Shown one piece after another: positions 34,371 to 47,024 of a stretch of 64,000 nt of DNA. The translations under genes were made by a program, and so were the position numbers. Numbering within the stretch: position 1 is the stretch's first letter; each line of letters opens with the position of its first letter. Origin of the DNA: Chrysophaeum taylorii (lineage: Eukaryota > Sar > Pelagophyceae > Pelagomonadales > Pelagomonadaceae); assembly GCA_029834535.1 (NCBI GenBank), contig JAQMWT010000344.1, forward strand, positions 558,001-622,000, given 5' to 3'. The notes beneath the pieces were generated by a model. It saw nothing but the letters and a program-made list of their open reading frames with translations. It did not search any database and was not told where the DNA came from.

Positions 34371-36790
34371 GGCGGCGTATTATTATTGTGGTGTGCAACT
34401 GCCAGGCTCAAGAGCCAGAATAGATTATCGTAGGGGAGAAGAGAGAAAGAAAGAAGAAAAGACCACGAACTACCGCCGCGGTGGAGAAGGAAGTGCAAAT
34501 GGAGAGAGACAGTAGAGAAGAAGAAGAGGGGCAACACGAGCAGGGCACGCAGATAGGGAGCGTGCCATAACGAGTGTTTGAGGGGGGGGGAGTATGGGAT
34601 TTGGCTCAGAGGCATGGCCGCCGCAACCGCCGTCGCCGCCGATACCGCCCATGTTATGGAGCAATCCAAGTCCGCCGCTTGTACTCGGGCGGGAGAATGA
34701 TCCCGCTCAACGCAGGTTGAACGCATGTTGTGGAAAATGGAAAGAGAACCCAAACTTGGGCCAAAGCACTGAAATGGAGGAGACACTTATCAATTTTTAT
34801 TATCATTATTATTATTATTATTGCTATCGCGCCTATTGTGCCGTATAGTGGTGTGTGAGGTCTTATCTCACTCCGCGTCATTACCTTCGCATCTTTACCA
34901 GTGCCTCGCTCTAATGTGCTGCGATGACGATCGAATACCAGCGCAAGACTAGTGCCGACCGATGGCGAGTTTGACTGGGAATTCTTTGTGCGACGCTGTT
35001 GTTGTTGCAATATCACAAAGCATGAGGAGGGTTCCAACAGGATAACATCGTATCAAGCGTCCTAAATGCCAAATTCCATGATTCATGATACGGCCGATAG
35101 GGCGGCAATACGCGTGATGCTCGTGGGCATGTGCACGCAAGAGCTGCCGCTGGCTCGGCTTCCTCGCCTTGGATCATGGGTTTTATCCTGCGGCGGTGGA
35201 GATTGCCATCAGTCTTGATCTCTTTCGCAGTCTATTTCATCTTTACGAAGCTGCCGTCACCGGCACTGCCTCGATATCATTCTCTGCATGGCAATAGGTG
35301 ATGGCGCGTGCTCCATTGATTGTTGATTCGCATCGATCTCTAACGCCACGTTGAACTTCGTGCCCTCCCGTTCTCGAATTTAACGAGTTGTCTGGCGCTG
35401 ACTTTTCTTGCAGTACCCATACGGCGGCAGCATACGTACGACCTGCGGGCGGGACCCAGCCTCTCTTTGCTTGCCCCGCGGCTGGGCGATGATCCTGACT
35501 AGGCCTCGGGATACCTACGCCCTCCAGTTACTACTCACGCCAACCCCCCTGAAAGCTCTTCGTGCTCCCGTTTGCACGCATCCTCTTGGCAGTCTTTACA
35601 TTCACATTATAATTTGCATGGTTTGCAACTCCCAGGCTCGAACTTGAGTCCATGAACAAGAATGGATGGCTACCACCTTCATTGCTTCAATCTGTACACA
35701 TCTGCGCAATATTGATACTTGAACACCCGTCTCTCATACCCTTGCATACTTTCGCACCCCCCTCTCTTCGCAGTCGACCACGAAAATCCTTGCCAACTCC
35801 CCCGATCTCCTCTGCGAGGCAGGAAAAGGGGTGCGCGTCTACAAAACTTGACATGGCCAAGATCCTCGTAGACTACGAGGATGTCGGGCACGGGGTGGCT
35901 TTCTCTCCGCCTCGCACGGTCACCATCAGACCGCCATCTCGAGACATGAGCTGACAAAATGTCTATGGTGAGAATATGGGCTAAATCGACAGCTGTCCTC
36001 AGAGGAGGGTGCTGACGTAGGCTTGGGTAGAAAGGGCTATGGGCGGTGCGGAAGCCGGGTAAGGAATGCATGGGAGGGTAAAGCAAACCGTAAGAGTTGC
36101 CGTTACAGGCCTCATGAAGCGCTGCACTCTGAGCCGGATAAGAAAGTTCGTACGAGCCGTTAACTATGTTTCAGTTTGTACTAAGACATACTCAACGGAT
36201 CGCTGAGCTATGTTCATTTGTACTCAAGCAGTATGTGCCGCCACGCCGCGAGATCGTCGCGATGGAACTAGTCCCCATAGTGAAGTCGGCATCCTTTCGC
36301 CCCCTCACGCAAAAAAAGGAAAAAGCCCACGCGTTGTAGGACCCGTCGTTGCGGCGCGGGCTAGTCTCGTTTTCTTATCCGACCCTAGACAGACTGCGGT
36401 TGTTTCTGAAAGATTTGCGGAGGGACATGCGTCGGAAAAGTGCAGCTAGCGGCAATATTTTTTCAAGAGTGACGCTGCGGTCTTCGACTGTCTTGATTTC
36501 AGGCTCGAGCTTGCGGTCACGGGGATGAGATGTGGGCTTATAACTGCAGGGAATTCTGCAGACTCCTGCTCTTGTTCCGTACGTCGAGGACGCGATCTCT
36601 TCCTTGCCTTTCTCCTACCCTTTGCACCAAATCAAATAGTCCCCTGATTGGCTTTAGTCGAGCGCGCCCCGTAGGTACGTAGACTTATTAAATGCTAACC
36701 TAGGTGTAGTTCTACGTGTCGTCTGTCTTGTGCTGAGGCTACGGGGACTAACCTGTTCCCTGAACGCTATAACTTGCCAGACTCACACGG
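34371..36790. other. 2.4-kb gene-free region left of the retroelement
   Basis: Lower GC than the surroundings; no convincing gene. An (ATT)n-like run is near 34797-34822. GCAACT-CCAGGCTC-like words recur at about 34.39 and 35.62 kb, which may be remnants of an old repeat. I looked here for a long terminal repeat matching the 44.7-45.5 kb side and found none. Confidence 0.4.
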
Positions 36791-36816
36791 TGAGACGGGA
36801 TGGTTCTTCAGTGACT

Positions 36817-38560
36817 TTATACCACTGCCTTGCGGAATATTCTGCAATAACACTTGATTTTGTCGTCCTCGCCGAGGCCGACGTAAAAGCGGAGAGCGAT
36901 ACGATTGGTCTTCCAGTCGTAGGACTCGTAAATCTCGGCGACATAGATTGTGGTACCCCAGCTGCGATCCTTGAAATCGGGTATCCGAAGGACGATGAAG
37001 TGACCGCGCTTGTTGTCGTGACGAGGAACATAGGGCAGTCGAGGTTTGGCGGCGTCGACGATAGGAGGGACTGATATCGGTGTAATTTTTTGCTGGGCGT
37101 GAACGACGAGGTCTTCGGCACGGTCATCGAGGGACTTGATCTTGTAGGAGACATGCGAAAGGCGCTTGGTGATAAGGAACTGTCTACGCCATTCGGGGCA
37201 CAGCTTGTTCTGAGGCTTGGGGATGTACAGGAGGGCGTGTGGTCCTTCGCTGTACTCGACGTCGACGTGGTCGGCATCATAGAGCAGCTTATGCTTCTCC
37301 TTGGCCTGTTGGTGAGCTTCAGCTACTACTTGGGTGTAAAACTTGATAGCGCCCTTGGTATCTGGCAATACATCTAAGCGAGTCTTCGTGTAGAACATGG
37401 ACTGGGCTGTTGATCGACGTGTAGTCGATCGGCAACATCGCCAGGCGGTTCGTCCGAAGCATGAATGGCGAGATTTTGTTGCCGGGAGTGTACTCGCGGT
37501 TGTAGCAGAACGAACAATACTTGGCGAAATCGGGCCAGTCCGTGATATTGCGGTCTTGGAGGCAAGCGCGAAGAAAAGCATTGAGAAACTTGTCGACGCG
37601 CTCGGCGGGGTTGGCTTAAGCGTGGTATGGCATCGTCGTGCTGTAACGAACGGCGAAGGCGGCGCAAAATTCGCGCATGAGCTCGTTGCAGAACTCGCTA
37701 CCGCTATCGGTGATGAGCTTGAGTGGTAGGTGACCCTGCAAGAGGATGTTGTTGACAAAAAAGAAAGAACTCGAGAATCATCTCGACTGACTTGTTCGGA
37801 ATGACGTCGAGGATCAAGAAATGTGAGAAAGGATCAAACATGACGAAAATATGGGAGTGAGGTCCGTGATTCGGATGAGGCCCGTGATTCGGAAGGGGTC
37901 CAAAGAGGCCCATGCAGAGGGCGGCACAGTTGCCATCATACTTGGGTTGTCGAAGATGACCATGGCTCTGGCGTTCGGGTTTTCTGGCAGACGAAGAATT
38001 GGTGAATAAAGTTACCGACATCGCTCGACATGTGCGGCCATCAAAAAAGCTCGGAGATGGTTCGACGAGTGATATCGCGACCCATATGACCACCGTTTAC
38101 AGGGCTGTCATGTTTCAGACGAATGATCTTCTGGCGCATCGTCGCAGGAGCTACCATCATAGGAAGCAGGTCGGCGACCATCCGGTACAAAACGACAGTG
38201 ATGATCTCAAAACGACAGTGCCCGTAATTGCGGAAAGAGTGACCGTTGGCCATGCGATCACGGATTGACTCGCCCATGTCATTGGTCTTCAGGGCTTTGG
38301 CAATCTTGCTCAGGGATAAGTTCTGTGGGATGGCGTCGATGTAGGCATGTATTACAGCAGCGTCGTGAAGAGGATGGCGTTGGTTATGTATACAAACCTT
38401 CTGGCGTTGTCGCGTCGCGCTAACGATGCACAGAGTACAGGGATCATCTGGGGGATCTTCCTCCACGTCGGGGATGTCCGTGGTGATAAAGGACAAGGTC
38501 ACATTACAGCCAGGGATCGGCTTGTCAAGATCAAGTGTCCGATCGGGCGACGCGACAAGC
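36817..38560 (-). mobile_element. Part of the retroelement: integrase region
   Basis: Fossil part. A zinc-binding HHCC-like N-terminal segment (about 38.1-38.0 kb), core-like sequence with a DPFSHFLILDVIP strand (about 37.8 kb) and a C-terminal domain with GPHALLYIPKP and KLCPEWRRQFLI (about 37.2 kb) are recognisable. Integrases of this class insert the DNA copy into the host genome. The region is broken. Confidence 0.75.
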
Positions 38561-39952
38561 AATCAGGTATGCTCATATCAGGGAACTTGCGAGGTTTGTA
38601 GCCAAGCTCTGGGTCGAAATTTGCGAGGCTCAATGCCCAGCGGGCGAGCTGACCAGACGAGTGCGTCGTGTTGCGCGAGAAGGTCAGGTTGCGGTAGTCC
38701 GTCTCCAAAACAGTGCGGTGCACTTCAACGTACTGTCGGAAGTGCTCCAGACACAGGATGACAGCGAGAACTTCGATGCGGCGTGGCTTGTACTGGCGCA
38801 TCTCTTTGGTGACGGCTCGATTCCAGTACTCAATCACGTGTTCTTCCCGAGTCTCAATCCCGTTTTTGTCCTCGACTTCGACAACATGAGAAAGGTAGGC
38901 ACCAACGCCGTCCTTGGAAGCATTGGGTCGAATCTGGAACGGTAGGTCGTAGATGTGGTGGCACACTCCGCGAGACTTGACCAGCGCTTCGATGGTCGTG
39001 TTCCAAGCCTTTTGGCTCTCCGGCGTTCATTTGAAGGGAACGTCATCTAGGCAGAGTCGGCGCAGCGGTTCTGCAATCTTCCAGTAGACCTTTACATACC
39101 GGCGGCAGTAGTTGGACATGCCGATGAAAGATCGGATCTGGGCCTTCGGCGAATTACCAGTGAGAGCACCAGGAACGGGCATCTTCCGTAATGCATCTAG
39201 CGTCTTAGGATTCGGCTTCAGACCTTCGGATGTTGATATGTGCCCGAGGAAATCGATCTCGTCCTGAAGAAGATGGAACTTCGAGGTTCGACCACTGTCG
39301 CCTTTCCGAGCGAGGTGACGCAGAAATCCGATCAAACACTGGAGGTGGCTGTGGAGGTCGTTCGTGCCCAACATGATATCGTCGATGAAGGCGATCAAAT
39401 CACGATACATCCACTTCGACAGGTCGCTTGCCATCTGTTTGCAAAAGAGGGCTCCGGCTGTCTTCACTCCCAGCCGAAGTCGCAGAAAGCTGTGCGCACC
39501 AAGAGGGCTAACCATGGTGACGGCATCTTGAGCGTCGCGGTCTAGACGTTAGTTGTTATAGCCTCACTGGATATCAATTGACTTGCGCCACCTTCGGCCG
39601 GCGAGGAAGGCTAGTGCATCATCTTGCCACACGTTTGGCCAACGGTCGTCGTTGAGTTGCTGGTAGTCGACGGCACGAGAGGCTTTTGACGTCAGATCTC
39701 CACCCACTTCTTCGGCAGCATCAGTACAGGAAATCCTCACGGCGAATTGGCCCGGCGGACCACTCCATCGCGGCACCACTCAGTAATCTGCTTTCCTAGG
39801 CACTCTAGTTGGCGGGCGTAAATCAATAGGATGTCATTTTGATCGGCTTTCGGACTCGAATCCTTGAAGCGCAACGACACAGTACGTGAATGGACGTGTC
39901 TCATAATAGGACCGATGAATGCCCAAGAGTATCGTGCGCAGTGGGTCAGCAT
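38530..39952 (-). mobile_element. Part of the retroelement: reverse transcriptase and RNase H
   Basis: Fossil part. The RT palm motif appears as AFIDDIMLGTND (about 39.4 kb) with upstream PLGAHSFLRLRLGVKTAGA and downstream FLGHISTSEGLKPNPKTL. The tether/RNase H start reads IRPNASKDGVGAYLSH and continues to RRIEVLAVILCLEHFRQYV. These are the standard Ty3/gypsy motifs. The region is broken. Confidence 0.85.
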
Positions 39953-40629
39953 CAGTTTAGCATCCTCTTACTAGCGCGGGTGGTTTGGAATTCCCAGTTC
40001 TTCGACGACTTCGTCTCCTTCTTCTTTGGTTGGGACTTGCACTTTCATCGCCTCGTTGTCCTTCAAATGTTCGAGAGTTTGCGGCAGCAGCGGACGCTCC
40101 ATCTTCGTCGCGCGGCGCATCGATCCACGGCACATCGAACTTTTCTTCATATTTGAATCGGACTTCGGGCTTGCTTTTTCTTTTCCGGTGCCTTCGTTCG
40201 TCGCGCTCGTTGAAATGCTTCGATGAACGAATCGGGGTCGGGAGGGTCCTTAGAGAAGAAATAATGCGACGTCCCCGGCGCGGCCTTGTCCTGCGGAAAG
40301 CGGGGTTCTGGTGGTTTCCATTTGGTGGGGTTGTATTACTCCCGTTTCGGGATGAACGACACGACGCTGGTGTGGACGTTGAGGACGGGTTGATCAGCGT
40401 CCATGGGGTCCGACAGAAACGTAAGAAGTTGTTCGGGTCGTCAATGCGGCACAGAGCGTCGTCGCGAACGGTGCCGGTGTTCCGCCAAGGCGGTGGCACA
40501 AAGTTATGAAACTGGCACGCGAGGGTGGCGAGCATGTCGGGTGGTATCACGGACGCAAGGTGCTTGAAACAATCCGTGATAGTCATGTCTAACCATCTGA
40601 AGTCTTCAGACTTTGTTATTGAGCGGCGG

Positions 40630-41410
40630 TCATCTCCACGGAGAGCGGCTTCGCGTCGGAGCGGTGCGGACCGACGCGTATCGGCTGGCAGGTTTGCGTG
40701 TACGCCGGTTCGGCGGCGAAACGACACTTCCCGAAGTGGCTGTAGTCTGTAGGACCTCCGGTTCATCAGGGTATCCAAGTCGGGCACCGAAGGCCTCCTG
40801 AAGAGTCGGGCAGGCCTTGTTGACCTCCTGGAAATTGAGCGGATGGCTCGAGATCATAAGACGTTTGCGGTCAGTACCGGTGTTGTCGCGGAGAAGACGG
40901 TGACGTACACGTATAGGTACTGTCGAACGACGTGCAGTAGGAGCGAAGGTTCTTGCTCTACTAGCCAGCACCGCACACCGGACATTCGAAAGAGGTTGGC
41001 GGTCCAGTTCGTGGCGGTGACTCCTTCTCCAACATGGCGTAAGGTCAGATTCGCGCGAGATGAGGACACAGGGAGGTGTGCCCACGACAAACGAGTTCGA
41101 CCATTCTTCTCGCTGCAGATAGTTATCGATCAGCTGTAGCGTGGTCTTGTACTGCCCGCAGAGCGTGTGCTTGACTACCGGTATGTGGGGGAAGTTGGCC
41201 TTATGAACCTTGAGCGCGGTTGCGGTTGCGACGAATCGATGCCAAAGGCGACACGGTAGGAGGTGCCGTGGCGCTCGTCGGCGCGCTGTATTCCGAGGGT
41301 TCCTCCGCCCATGCCGGCGAAGAGCATCACAACATTGGTGTAGGTGAAAGGGCTCCAATGGAGTCGGCTGTGGCGCAGCAGAATAGCATCTCGAATCTCC
41401 TCGCGGGAGG
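40630..41410 (-). mobile_element. Part of the retroelement: cytosine-5 DNA methyltransferase-like domain
   Basis: Fossil part, located between the protease and the reverse transcriptase. Visible signatures: a SAM-binding motif I, VVMLFAGMGGGTLGI, followed by AFGID (motif II); ALKVHKANFPHIPVVKHTL (motif II/III region); VVGTPPC, the Pro-Cys dipeptide of the catalytic motif IV; and a later KRLMISSHPLNFQEV then CPTLQEAFGARLGY segment like motifs VIII to X of C5-methyltransferases. C5-methyltransferases carried in retrotransposons have been reported in dinoflagellates and charophyte algae. The domain is not in one open frame, so activity is not expected from this copy. Confidence 0.75.
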
Positions 41411-41948: not shown

Positions 41949-42350
41949 TCAAATCGGTGGTGGCCGGAGCATGTCCTGCATGGTCCACTCCAGCTGCACA
42001 ATCCGCTTGCCGCGATCGAGCTCTGCTTCGGCGATCGCAGTCTGCTGTCTGGCGTAGATTGGCGCGATAATGGGCTCGTTTTCGTATAGCGCACGGTGAG
42101 TCAACGTGGGGGCCGAAACTTTTCGTCCAAGGTAAGTAATCTCTCGCCGCTGGTAGACAGCCTGCGAGTGGTGGAGCAGAATGCGGTTCTTCGGAAAGTC
42201 CACGACCGACCCTAAGGCCTCGATGTCGCGGCAGCCGAGCAGGAAGAGTTTGTTGGTGTCGGCAACGATGGCAACTATGGGCACCGTCATCTCGTCGGTA
42301 ATAGTGACCCGTATGGCGACGCACTCGTCGATCCGAGTTTGAATTTTCAC
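41949..42350 (-). mobile_element. Part of the retroelement: retropepsin-like protease
   Basis: Fossil part. LLGCRDIEALGSVVDFPKN, followed by RILLHH, has the flap-to-C-terminal layout (LLG-x-D...G...V-D...N-x-I) of retroviral-type aspartic proteases in Ty3/gypsy elements. The catalytic DTG-like start could not be placed with confidence. Confidence 0.6.
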
Positions 42351-42730
42351 GAGCTACAGCAGAGTTCCCCGGTCGATTATCAACTTTCCCCCGTCGAAAT
42401 TGGCTACTCGGTCGCGACAATACAAGTCCACGCCACTACAGTGCTGAACTATCGTCCACTGGCGAGGGAGAACACGTGGGCGGGCATAAAAGTCGGCCGT
42501 CCTGGATCCAGGCAGCAAATCGTCTTCAGTCCTCTTTCGACCCGCGCTTCGTAGTCGGGCGAGAGCGCTGCGTGGCAACACAACGGCTCCTGCAGAGCGT
42601 CGTCTCCGGCAACGGGCACGAGGCCGTCATTGGCTTCCATTGTCCTCAGCCAAAGGGTCGTGTCGGCGATTAGCCAGGTCTTCTCTGGGTTGTCGGCCTC
42701 GGGAGGTCGAGGTGGGGGTCGGTTATAGAA

Positions 42731-45564: not shown

Positions 45565-47024
45565 ATGTGCGTCGCCAAGAAAATCGGGCCGGCCATTGGG
45601 TCCGAGATGGTGGCAGTCGAGGACAAAGTGTACGACGTGTCCAAGTTCCGGTCGGCGCATCCCGGCGGACCAATGTTTGTGTCCATGTTCGGCGGTCGCG
45701 ACGCGACGCTCGCCTTCCAGACCTACCATGGTCGGCCATTTCCCCACGACAAGATGAAGGAGTACCTTGTCGGAAGCGTCGACGACCCCGTTGCCCCCGA
45801 TCCCGACCTTGCCGAGCTCCAGGTCAAGGTTCGCGCGGCCGTTGGTGCCGGCCGACCATCTTTGGCGCAAAAAATTAAGGCCGTTACGTTGGTAGTGTCT
45901 GCTGTGCTGCTGGAGCTGTCATGCCTGTGGTCGCGCAACTGGCTCAAATCTTGTGTCCTGGGCCTCTTGTTTGCGCTCATCGGTCTCAATGTTCAACACG
46001 ACTCGAACCACGGGGCAATGCGCTACGGCGGCTGGACTCAGTCGTGGATCGGAGGCTCGCAGCTGATGTGGATCCAAGAACATGTGAGACTCTTCTTCTG
46101 CACCGCACTTCCATTGTCGCGACATGTCGTATGATCCGTCTGGCCGCGCTTCTTCCAGCGCGTCTGGCCGCGAGTACACCAAGTCAGCGGTTTGACGCGT
46201 GACTGTCTGGAAGCACCATGCCTGTCACCTCGTGTTGTTGTTCACCTGTCGTCCGACGTCATTTAGCCTTGAATATAAATGTCTTTTGTCGCTCGTGTGT
46301 TAATTTCGCCTTCCAATTGTGCCCGACCTCGACGTTTTCGGCTTAGGTCGTCCTGCATCACCTCCACACGGGCACCGCGATGGACCCCGATGCGCAGGGC
46401 GTACCCGTGCTTAGGCTCAATGCCGACGATCCGTGGTTCCCCTGGGTCCGGTTTCAGCACTGGTACATACTCATTCTGGAGATGGGGTATGGGGCCATCC
46501 CGCTCTTTGGTTCGTTTTTTGAAGTTCTCGCCTGGCAGCACAAGCTCCAGAAAAAGTACCAACTCTCCGAGCTCGCCAAGCCCTGGCGCCTGCAGAACCT
46601 CGCCATGTCCCTCCTCTTCTACGCGCGTCTCATCGTCATCCCTTATTTTCAAGGTGAACTTCGCAAGGCGATTGCCACGTTTGCAGTGGGCGGCTTTTAC
46701 TTGGCATTTTTTTTCTTTCTGTCCCACAACTTCACCGAAGCGGACTTCACGCAGAATACATTTTTCAAACAGCAGGTCGCGGCGTCCTCCAACGTCGGCG
46801 GATCCTGGCTTAGCTGGATTAACGGTGGTCTCAACTATCAGATTGAACACCATCTCTTCCCACGAATCGCTCACTCGCACTATCCTACCATTGCGCCCAT
46901 CGTCAAGTCGTTCGTCACCGCCAAAGGCGTTCCCTACGTCCATTTCCCCACTGTTTCAGCGAATCTCAAGTCCGTCTTCGCTGGCCTCGAAAAGTTTGGT
47001 TTACCCCCAAAGAAGGATGACTAA
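45565..47024 (+). CDS. Cytochrome-b5 front-end fatty acid desaturase, two exons
   Basis: Exon 1 45565-46083 and exon 2 46347-47024 (263-nt intron 46084-46346, GTGAGA...TTAG, phase 0) give 398 residues. Front-end desaturases (delta-4/5/6/8) introduce double bonds between an existing one and the carboxyl end of long-chain acyl groups in the ER. The N-terminal b5 domain has the haem motif HPGG. His box I is HDSNH. Box II, QEH-VVLHH, is created across the intron. Box III is QIEHH, with Gln as the first ligand as in all front-end enzymes. Membrane helices lie between boxes I and II and in exon 2 (ATFAVGGFYLAFFFFLSHNF). Regioselectivity cannot be read by eye. An in-frame ATG at 45607 is an alternative start. 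Confidence 0.9.

Follow-up and report, generated by a model that had tools for sequence, protein, structure and literature searches.

A C5-methyltransferase-like domain in a decayed Ty3/gypsy element of the pelagophyte Chrysophaeum taylorii and in its open relatives

RESULTS

The 64,000-nucleotide stretch of Chrysophaeum taylorii DNA analyzed here (the window) contains, on its minus strand, a broken Ty3/gypsy element in which a methyltransferase (MTase)-like domain is placed between the protease and the reverse transcriptase (RT). Pieces resembling the polyprotein of an intact relative elsewhere in the genome (locus L024, contig C5) run from 42580 to 36468 on the minus strand at 37-75% identity and are collinear with it; the order of protease-like stretch, MTase-like domain, RT, RNase H, and integrase is that of L024, and stops and frame changes throughout mark the window copy as decayed. 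The first piece that matches the polyprotein (42434..42580, minus strand; 37% identity over 49 amino acids) is followed by a protease-like stretch containing LFLLGCRDI (42024..42338, minus strand; 48% identity over 105 amino acids to L024 residues 869-973), which was recognized as a protease by eye and has no match in Pfam. No match to the gag-like part of the relative was found upstream of 42580, to about 45100. On the other side of the MTase-like domain, and again on the minus strand, RT and RNase H occupy 38499..39659 (75% identity over 379 amino acids to L024), with the RT profile PF00078 at 39027-39548 (34.6 bits) and the RNase H profile PF17917 at 38499-39026 (78.4 bits). The integrase, H2C2 and core, lies in several frames at 37349..38232 (minus strand; pieces of 56-62% identity to the L024 residues that match PF17921 and PF00665), and the C-terminal end of the polyprotein lies at 36468..37386 (minus strand; pieces of 47-64% identity to L024 residues 2576-2778). 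Long terminal repeats (LTRs) of the window copy were searched for and none were found. By DNA, the closest locus is on contig C50 (75% to the window element), with the main family at 70-72%. A host front-end desaturase gene of the cytochrome-b5 type (CTAYLR_000305; window 45576-47024) adjoins the 5' side of the element, and CTAYLR_009499 is its paralogue (71%).

The MTase-like domain was traced by ungapped tblastn of the 406-residue domain of L024 against the window. Six collinear minus-strand pieces in different frames, with 37-60% identity to this domain, together cover 40425..41405; about 161 of 325 residues are identical (~50%; sum E 2.6e-90), and the best window match outside the element reached 27.0 bits (E 0.64). 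All on the minus strand, and with motif names given by eye, the pieces carry motif I (VVMLFAGMGGGTLGI; LFAGMGGGTLGI) and the start of motif II (41229..41405; 51% identity over 59 amino acids), the Pro-Cys motif IV, VGTPPC (41065..41229; 60% over 55), a motif-VI-like WLVEQE (40872..41069; 53% over 66), a motif-VIII-like RKR (40747..40869; 46% over 41), a stretch towards the C-terminal end (40625..40741; 51% over 39), and a motif-X-like end, FKHLASVIPPD (40425..40619; 37% over 65). A seventh piece with one stop lies at 40306..40389 (minus strand; 43% identity). By eye, the motifs stand in the order of C5-MTases. None of the four window frames and none of the six window pieces matches the C5-MTase profile PF00145 when tested alone; the window domain is identified as C5-MTase-like through its homology to intact family members, whose domain does match PF00145. 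A chance motif is ruled out, since 325 residues align collinearly with homologous intact copies.

A first-pass annotation of this DNA had proposed a DNA MTase-like segment at 40630..41410, between the protease and the RT of a Ty3/gypsy-like element, with a SAM-binding motif I, VGTPPC, and later C5-MTase-like blocks. Its placement agrees with the six collinear pieces and with the protease-like stretch, RT, and RNase H that flank them, and all of the named motifs were found by eye in the homologous pieces. The segment itself is real; its lower limit has to be moved, as the domain continues for some 200 bases further, to about 40425. We conclude that the window element is an eroded Ty3/gypsy copy of a polyprotein type in which a predicted C5-MTase domain is fixed between protease and RT.

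Searches of the host genome (70.8 Mb, 697 contigs; C. taylorii is a pelagophyte of the Stramenopiles, Ochrophyta) showed that this polyprotein type, here called family A, is abundant. Used as a DNA query, the whole element of the window matched 82 times, with the RT part covered at 39 places besides the window. With the family-A MTase domain as a protein query, all 102 scored matches (the best 102 of 1146 candidates) had 76-100% identity, 76 of these 102 rows, as counted from the table, were without an in-frame stop, and the two longest open frames surrounding the domain among the scored matches measured 3063 and 3067 amino acids. L024 itself has an uninterrupted frame of 2839 amino acids in which the MTase-like domain is followed by RT, RNase H, and integrase (PF00078, PF17917, PF17921 [H2C2], and PF00665 [rve], the Ty3/gypsy order). 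The presence of at least 102 family-A MTase matches in the genome rules out a single odd insertion, and the domain occupies the same position in many family-A elements. The system had initially been described as a fossil, which is true of the broken window copy and not of family A as a whole, in which many related copies have open frames and evolve under purifying selection (see below). The copy numbers of family A, and of the second family described below, may be inflated by duplicate contigs. Contigs C10 and C297 have near-identical rows and places in the searches for both families, and C25 and C521 in the search for the second, which suggests that they are duplicated (haplotype) contigs.

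Family-A copies are adjoined by LTRs of ~340 bp that start with TGTGGCG and end with CGCCACA, as judged by eye. At least part of the MTase domain is present in 11 of the 13 family-A loci examined (L015, L016, and L018-L028; window excluded). L026 (C444) has the gag-like part joined to the linker before the RT, without protease and MTase, and its LTR pair consists of two direct end repeats that are 97% identical over 313 bp; this copy (L026:1213-8631) resembles a family-A derivative with an internal deletion, perhaps a non-autonomous one. L025 (C50) was dropped as an MTase-less relative because an LTR on the opposite strand truncates it upstream, which makes it uninformative. For 20 of the 39 RT loci an MTase is listed directly upstream and for the other 19 none is, a count that draws on the best-scored candidates alone and cannot show absence. 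Four of these 19 carry a broken, partial, or rearranged MTase (C53, C464, C671, and the second C491 copy, in L020), and the remaining 15 comprise the cut-off L025, the MTase-less L026, and 13 loci counted from the match listing alone. The copy on C671 (L023:2647-8573) lies between two LTRs that are 98.8% identical over 338 bp, and has the first part of its MTase inverted, as if it had been rearranged or had inserted into itself. In the protease-like stretch of the L024 polyprotein (about residues 820-960), the sequence reads VDGMADVS by eye, instead of the usual D-S/T-G-A; this may be a protease active site of unusual sequence, or it may not be the active site at all.

We consider it highly probable, from profile matches and motif order, that domain A is a C5-MTase. 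Tested alone, it matches PF00145 with 24.5 bits (cut-off 22) over profile positions 2-51 of 324; the whole L024 polyprotein stays below the cut-off (18.4 bits), and in alignment A3 seven of 14 rows match, none of them window pieces. PF00145 and TIGR00675 (17.9 bits; cut-off 100.65) are the best families, and the one other match, DUF4964 (15.3 bits; cut-off 30.7), is located after the MTase part, so that the best family in the library for this domain is a methyltransferase family, as first annotated. A family-A profile with the window pieces added was compared, with column shuffles as control, with a panel whose two eukaryotic families were DNMT2 and DNMT5, one of them built of DNMT2s alone. 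The score against DNMT2 was 50.7 (maximum of 100 column shuffles, 26.9), with the similarity limited to columns 25-76, that is, motifs I-II; the score against DNMT5 was 16.8, which 23 of 100 shuffles reached. When the rest of the domain (motifs IV-X) was compared alone, there was no clear match: its score was reached by 1 or 2 of 60 shuffles against DNMT2 and by 3 to 33 of 60 against DNMT5, and the score of segment IX-X against DNMT2 by 1 of 60, motifs IX-X themselves having been placed by eye. The best MTases in a PDB search with domain A were DNMT2 chains (14.5 and 14.4 bits; E 0.1, not significant), which appeared among unrelated chains. Two AlphaFold models were unusable (mean pLDDT 27 and 31, the latter for domain A).

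At the level of motifs, PPC (motif IV) is present in all 10 family-A copies with data and in the window copy. Motif VI is EQE and not ENV, with Glu in 10 of 11 copies and in the window, and Asn absent; motif VIII is xxRxR in 11 of 11 copies (canonical QxRxR). One of the 11 copies has E changed to D and one has a motif-I G changed to E. This conservation carries little weight because 83% of family-A columns are invariant; PPC, the motif-VI Glu, and R-x-R are also common to family A and the window lineage, though these share only about half of all residues. A likeness to DNMT2 over the full length was not seen, PPCQP and ENV both being absent by eye. The motif order I-II-IV-VI-VIII is kept, with 38 residues from Cys to Glu and 70 from Cys to R-x-R. 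In M.HhaI, the distance from Cys81 to Glu119 is 38 residues and that from Cys to R-x-R is 82.

A genome search with PF00145 gave at least 57 matches (best 123 of 474 candidates scored). The two best, L001 and L002, look like host genes, L001 being DNMT2-like (138 bits to human DNMT2) and L002 DNMT5-like (430 bits to Cryptococcus Dnmt5). Among the 55 others, 12 were examined and all 12 belong to a second element family, family B, whose MTase exceeds the PF00145 cut-off of 22 bits in three copies (38.6, 32.1, and 29.9 bits; about profile positions 24-169). The family-B pol of L034 has a DGGAS protease motif at residue 80 (by eye), the MTase from about residue 306, an rve match of 17.2 bits (cut-off 32.6) at 1016-1110, and RVT_2 with 133.2 bits at 1686-1933 (97.9 bits in L035); an integrase before an RVT_2-type RT is the Ty1/copia order. 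A protein search with the family-B MTase gave at least 120 matched stretches, some of them parts of one copy (best 113 of 606 candidates). P-C-Q, E-N, and K.R, seven core residues in all, are identical in 12 of 12 copies and the V of ENV in 11 of 12, with 36% of columns invariant. About 300 residues after motif VIII, a motif IX/X-like end, RYATLNEIAK..FKALANAVP, was seen by eye, for which Pfam gives no support. The conserved stretch between motifs VIII and IX (L034:4834-5376), which has no Pfam match, may be either a target-recognition domain of large size or a separate domain fused to the MTase.

Against the DNMT2 profile the family-B MTase scored 28.3, a score reached by none of 100 shuffles (highest 26.5), and against DNMT5 it scored 21.4, reached by 3 of 100. 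The profile scores of 16.8 for A and 21.4 for B indicate that neither looks like a recent copy of the host DNMT5, and this host gene as a recent source of A or B was not supported. DNMT6 is described from Pelagophyceae (PMC9998398, in its available text); none was seen among the 14 of 57 PF00145 matches that were inspected, a search in which intron-split genes can be missed. A profile comparison of the A and B MTases detected no similarity between them. As two element classes carry two dissimilar putative MTases, both after the protease, these are best read as two captures; the two enzymes may still have a deep common origin.

Selection was assessed by pairwise NG86 dN/dS, with pairs of fewer than 60 codons or with dS <=0.01 left out. 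The family-A MTase has a median dN/dS of 0.272 (11 copies, 55 pairs), and the other parts of family A have medians of 0.077 for RT (64 pairs), 0.099 for RNase H (64), and 0.082 for integrase (55), with 0.392 for the protease-linker part (58 pairs) and 0.590 for the gag-like part (10 pairs). In family B the median is 0.157 for the MTase (12 copies, 66 pairs), with 0.146 for integrase (36 pairs) and 0.240 for RT (15 pairs). Both MTase domains are under purifying selection; in family A, constraint on the MTase is clearly weaker than on RT and integrase. Since decay after insertion raises these ratios, they probably understate the constraint in lineages that are active.

CpG occurs at 1.28 times the expected frequency in the window element and at 1.32 times in the remainder of the window; with flanks included, the observed/expected ratio spans 1.22-1.31 among six family-A loci and 0.98-1.08 among seven family-B loci. 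In family A the share of C/T differences is 0.043 at CpG, 0.037 at CpA, 0.036 at CpC, and 0.056 at CpT, and in family B 0.143, 0.088, 0.120, and 0.154, respectively. Neither CpG observed/expected nor C/T changes at CpG gave any sign of heavy CpG decay in family A, which argues against lasting dense CpG methylation of its copies, or for good repair. The first-pass annotation had also suggested that such an MTase could mark the element's own copies or affect host silencing; CpG decay, the one footprint tested for such effects, is thus not visible in family A. In family-A loci L019-L024, L027, and L028, C/T differences peak at CpT, where the transition/transversion ratio is 4.9. The family-B loci L029 and L033-L038 have CpG observed/expected of about 1.0, compared with about 1.3 both for gypsy loci and for window DNA outside the element; a difference in methylation or in base composition may set the copia copies apart.

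DISCUSSION

Cytosine methylation silences retrotransposons in many hosts, so a retrotransposon that keeps its own methyltransferase is a paradox. Three such elements are already in print, SymbioLINE-Dnmt, SymbioDIRS-Dnmt3, and KnitGypsy-Dnmt3 (PMC5890265), and de novo CG methylation is described there as shown for the MTases of Symbiodinium DIRS elements. KnitGypsy-Dnmt3 of Klebsormidium nitens resembles family A in having a C5-MTase in a Ty3/gypsy Pol, many copies, and purifying selection, with a Ka/Ks below 0.2 (PMC5890265) compared with a dN/dS of 0.27 in family A. It differs in that its MTase is a Dnmt3, whereas domain A weakly resembles DNMT2 in motifs I-II and belongs to a stramenopile host, and in that its repeats are DIRS-like (PMC5890265), whereas the family-A relative L026 has an ordinary LTR pair. 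The Symbiodinium elements SymbioDIRS-Dnmt3 and SymbioLINE-Dnmt share with families A and B the presence of C5-MTase retroelements of at least two classes in one genome (PMC5890265); however, Symbiodinium is a dinoflagellate with DIRS and LINE elements, and those of C. taylorii are LTR elements, gypsy and copia, known from sequence alone. An orchid Ty3/gypsy element with an m6A RNA demethylase (PMC9289625) likewise joins gypsy to a nucleic-acid-modifying enzyme, though of another enzyme family, an RNA demethylase, and in another host.

Other reports come close to the elements described here. "LTR Copia and DIRS" elements with DNMT3 are mentioned for streptophytes and dinoflagellates (PMC12344493, citing PMC5890265); in the passage available, the Copia mention may be the same case as the Gypsy element of PMC5890265, or possibly another one. 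Ty3/gypsy and DIRS elements encoding DAM or DCM are listed for groups that include Stramenopiles, in a text that does not separate adenine from cytosine enzymes (PMC6338049). The accessible part of a study of marine stramenopile elements reports no such MTase (PMC3145265), and "transpos" is absent from the main text of the C. taylorii genome paper (PMC10366177). A literature search that took in few subscription papers and preprints found no C5-MTase described from a retroelement of pelagophytes and no clear example in copia. Among 5.8 billion proteins there was no relative of A (0 of 4819 candidates) or of B (0 of 4558) in a search that needs shared 5-residue words and similar length, that missed the alga's own copies, and that is weak on other pelagophytes; two scans of viral contigs, with patterns that are not MTase motifs, had 127 and 154 pattern matches, of which none was confirmed as a relative. 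The earlier suggestion that this could be another lineage is borne out, a pelagophyte stramenopile being distinct from the two lineages in print, dinoflagellates and charophytes. The present case extends this list by a stramenopile host, an element of the copia type, and a genome with MTases in two LTR superfamilies.

We tentatively favor a reading, quite possibly correct, in which an active A-type MTase, carried together with RT and integrase, methylates the element's own new cDNA, so that the copy would arrive already marked. The active domain would be present in the particle with RT and integrase, and cytosines of the newly made cDNA would be methylated before or at integration, a mechanism already put forward for the DIRS elements of Symbiodinium (PMC5890265). 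Once marked, the cDNA could escape being recognized as foreign, or the mark could set the chromatin state at the new insertion site, and a host DNMT5-type enzyme could then maintain what the element had written. DNMT3 is described as missing from most stramenopiles except diatoms, DNMT5a as present in pelagophytes, and the DNMT5 of Cryptococcus as involved in maintenance (PMC9998398, in its available text); element MTases could thus be a source of de novo methylation. The position in Pol, the many copies, the open frames, the purifying selection, the second putative capture in copia, the de novo CG methylation by Symbiodinium DIRS MTases, and the DNMT5-like and DNMT2-like host enzymes speak for such cDNA marking. 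The weak profile support for A, EQE, the unusable AlphaFold models, the weaker constraint compared with RT and integrase, the lack of a CpG footprint, the MTase-less L026, and the 19 of 39 RT loci for which no MTase is listed directly upstream speak against it.

Several of these observations bear on other readings. Domain A might be an RNA methyltransferase of the DNMT2 kind that methylates the tRNA primer or the element RNA and so aids priming or RNA stability, as RNA methylation is discussed for SymbioLINE (PMC5890265). Among the profiles tested A matched DNMT2 and not DNMT5, its best PDB MTases are DNMT2 chains, and the missing CpG decay would fit an enzyme that acts on RNA; we nevertheless regard this as unlikely, for the match is limited to motifs I-II within a panel with two eukaryotic families, the PDB hits are not significant, the DNMT2 signs PPCQP and ENV are not seen in A, and B has no likeness to DNMT2 beyond its score. 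The same lack of a CpG footprint, along with EQE in motif VI, the higher dN/dS of the family-A MTase compared with RT and integrase, and the E to D and motif-I G to E changes in single copies, would be consistent with domains that are no longer enzymes and are kept for binding of nucleic acid or SAM, for particle assembly, or for spacing in the polyprotein. This we hold to be unlikely, in view of the seven core residues that are the same in all 12 family-B copies and, with little weight, of PPC in 10 of 10 and R-x-R in 11 of 11 family-A copies, both of which recur in the window lineage.

It is also conceivable that the host genome is the main target of the MTase, which would act in trans and either disturb or saturate host methylation or slow transposition and so spare the host. 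The large copy number of A and B fits this, and it has been proposed for Symbiodinium (PMC5890265), but the window outside the element is also without CpG decay, and we find this reading quite improbable. Least of all do we expect domain A to be another class-I methyltransferase or a chance likeness, although the profile support is confined to motifs I-II, the AlphaFold model of A is unusable, the window pieces match nothing, and the whole polyprotein stays under the PF00145 cut-off. PF00145 and TIGR00675 are the best families with DUF4964 as the sole other match, below its cut-off, and the motif order is that of C5-MTases with the Cys to Glu distance of M.HhaI, though the distance from Cys to R-x-R is 70 and not 82, which makes this last alternative very improbable.

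Methylation of the element's own cDNA by its MTase could also be part of a larger scheme, in which two unrelated LTR superfamilies would have independently fixed unrelated C5-MTases at one and the same position, immediately behind the protease, these would jointly be the de novo source of methylation in the genome, and the host DNMT5 would copy the mark. We put this forward as a speculation that is distinctly unlikely; if it were true, silencing marks would be set by the parasite and not by the host. The question of why elements keep MTases is testable in one culturable alga with public long-read and RNA data. These include PacBio reads of strain NIES-1699 (SRR22085545, named in PMC10366177) and RNA-seq (SRR22085759); one of the nanopore libraries was made from whole-genome-amplified DNA. 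The two families also occur side by side: gypsy-type LTRs like those of L026 are found in copia (family B) loci (L031:4157-4466 and L037:8876-9196), in L031 directly beside the copia MTase, which suggests gypsy insertions into copia elements.
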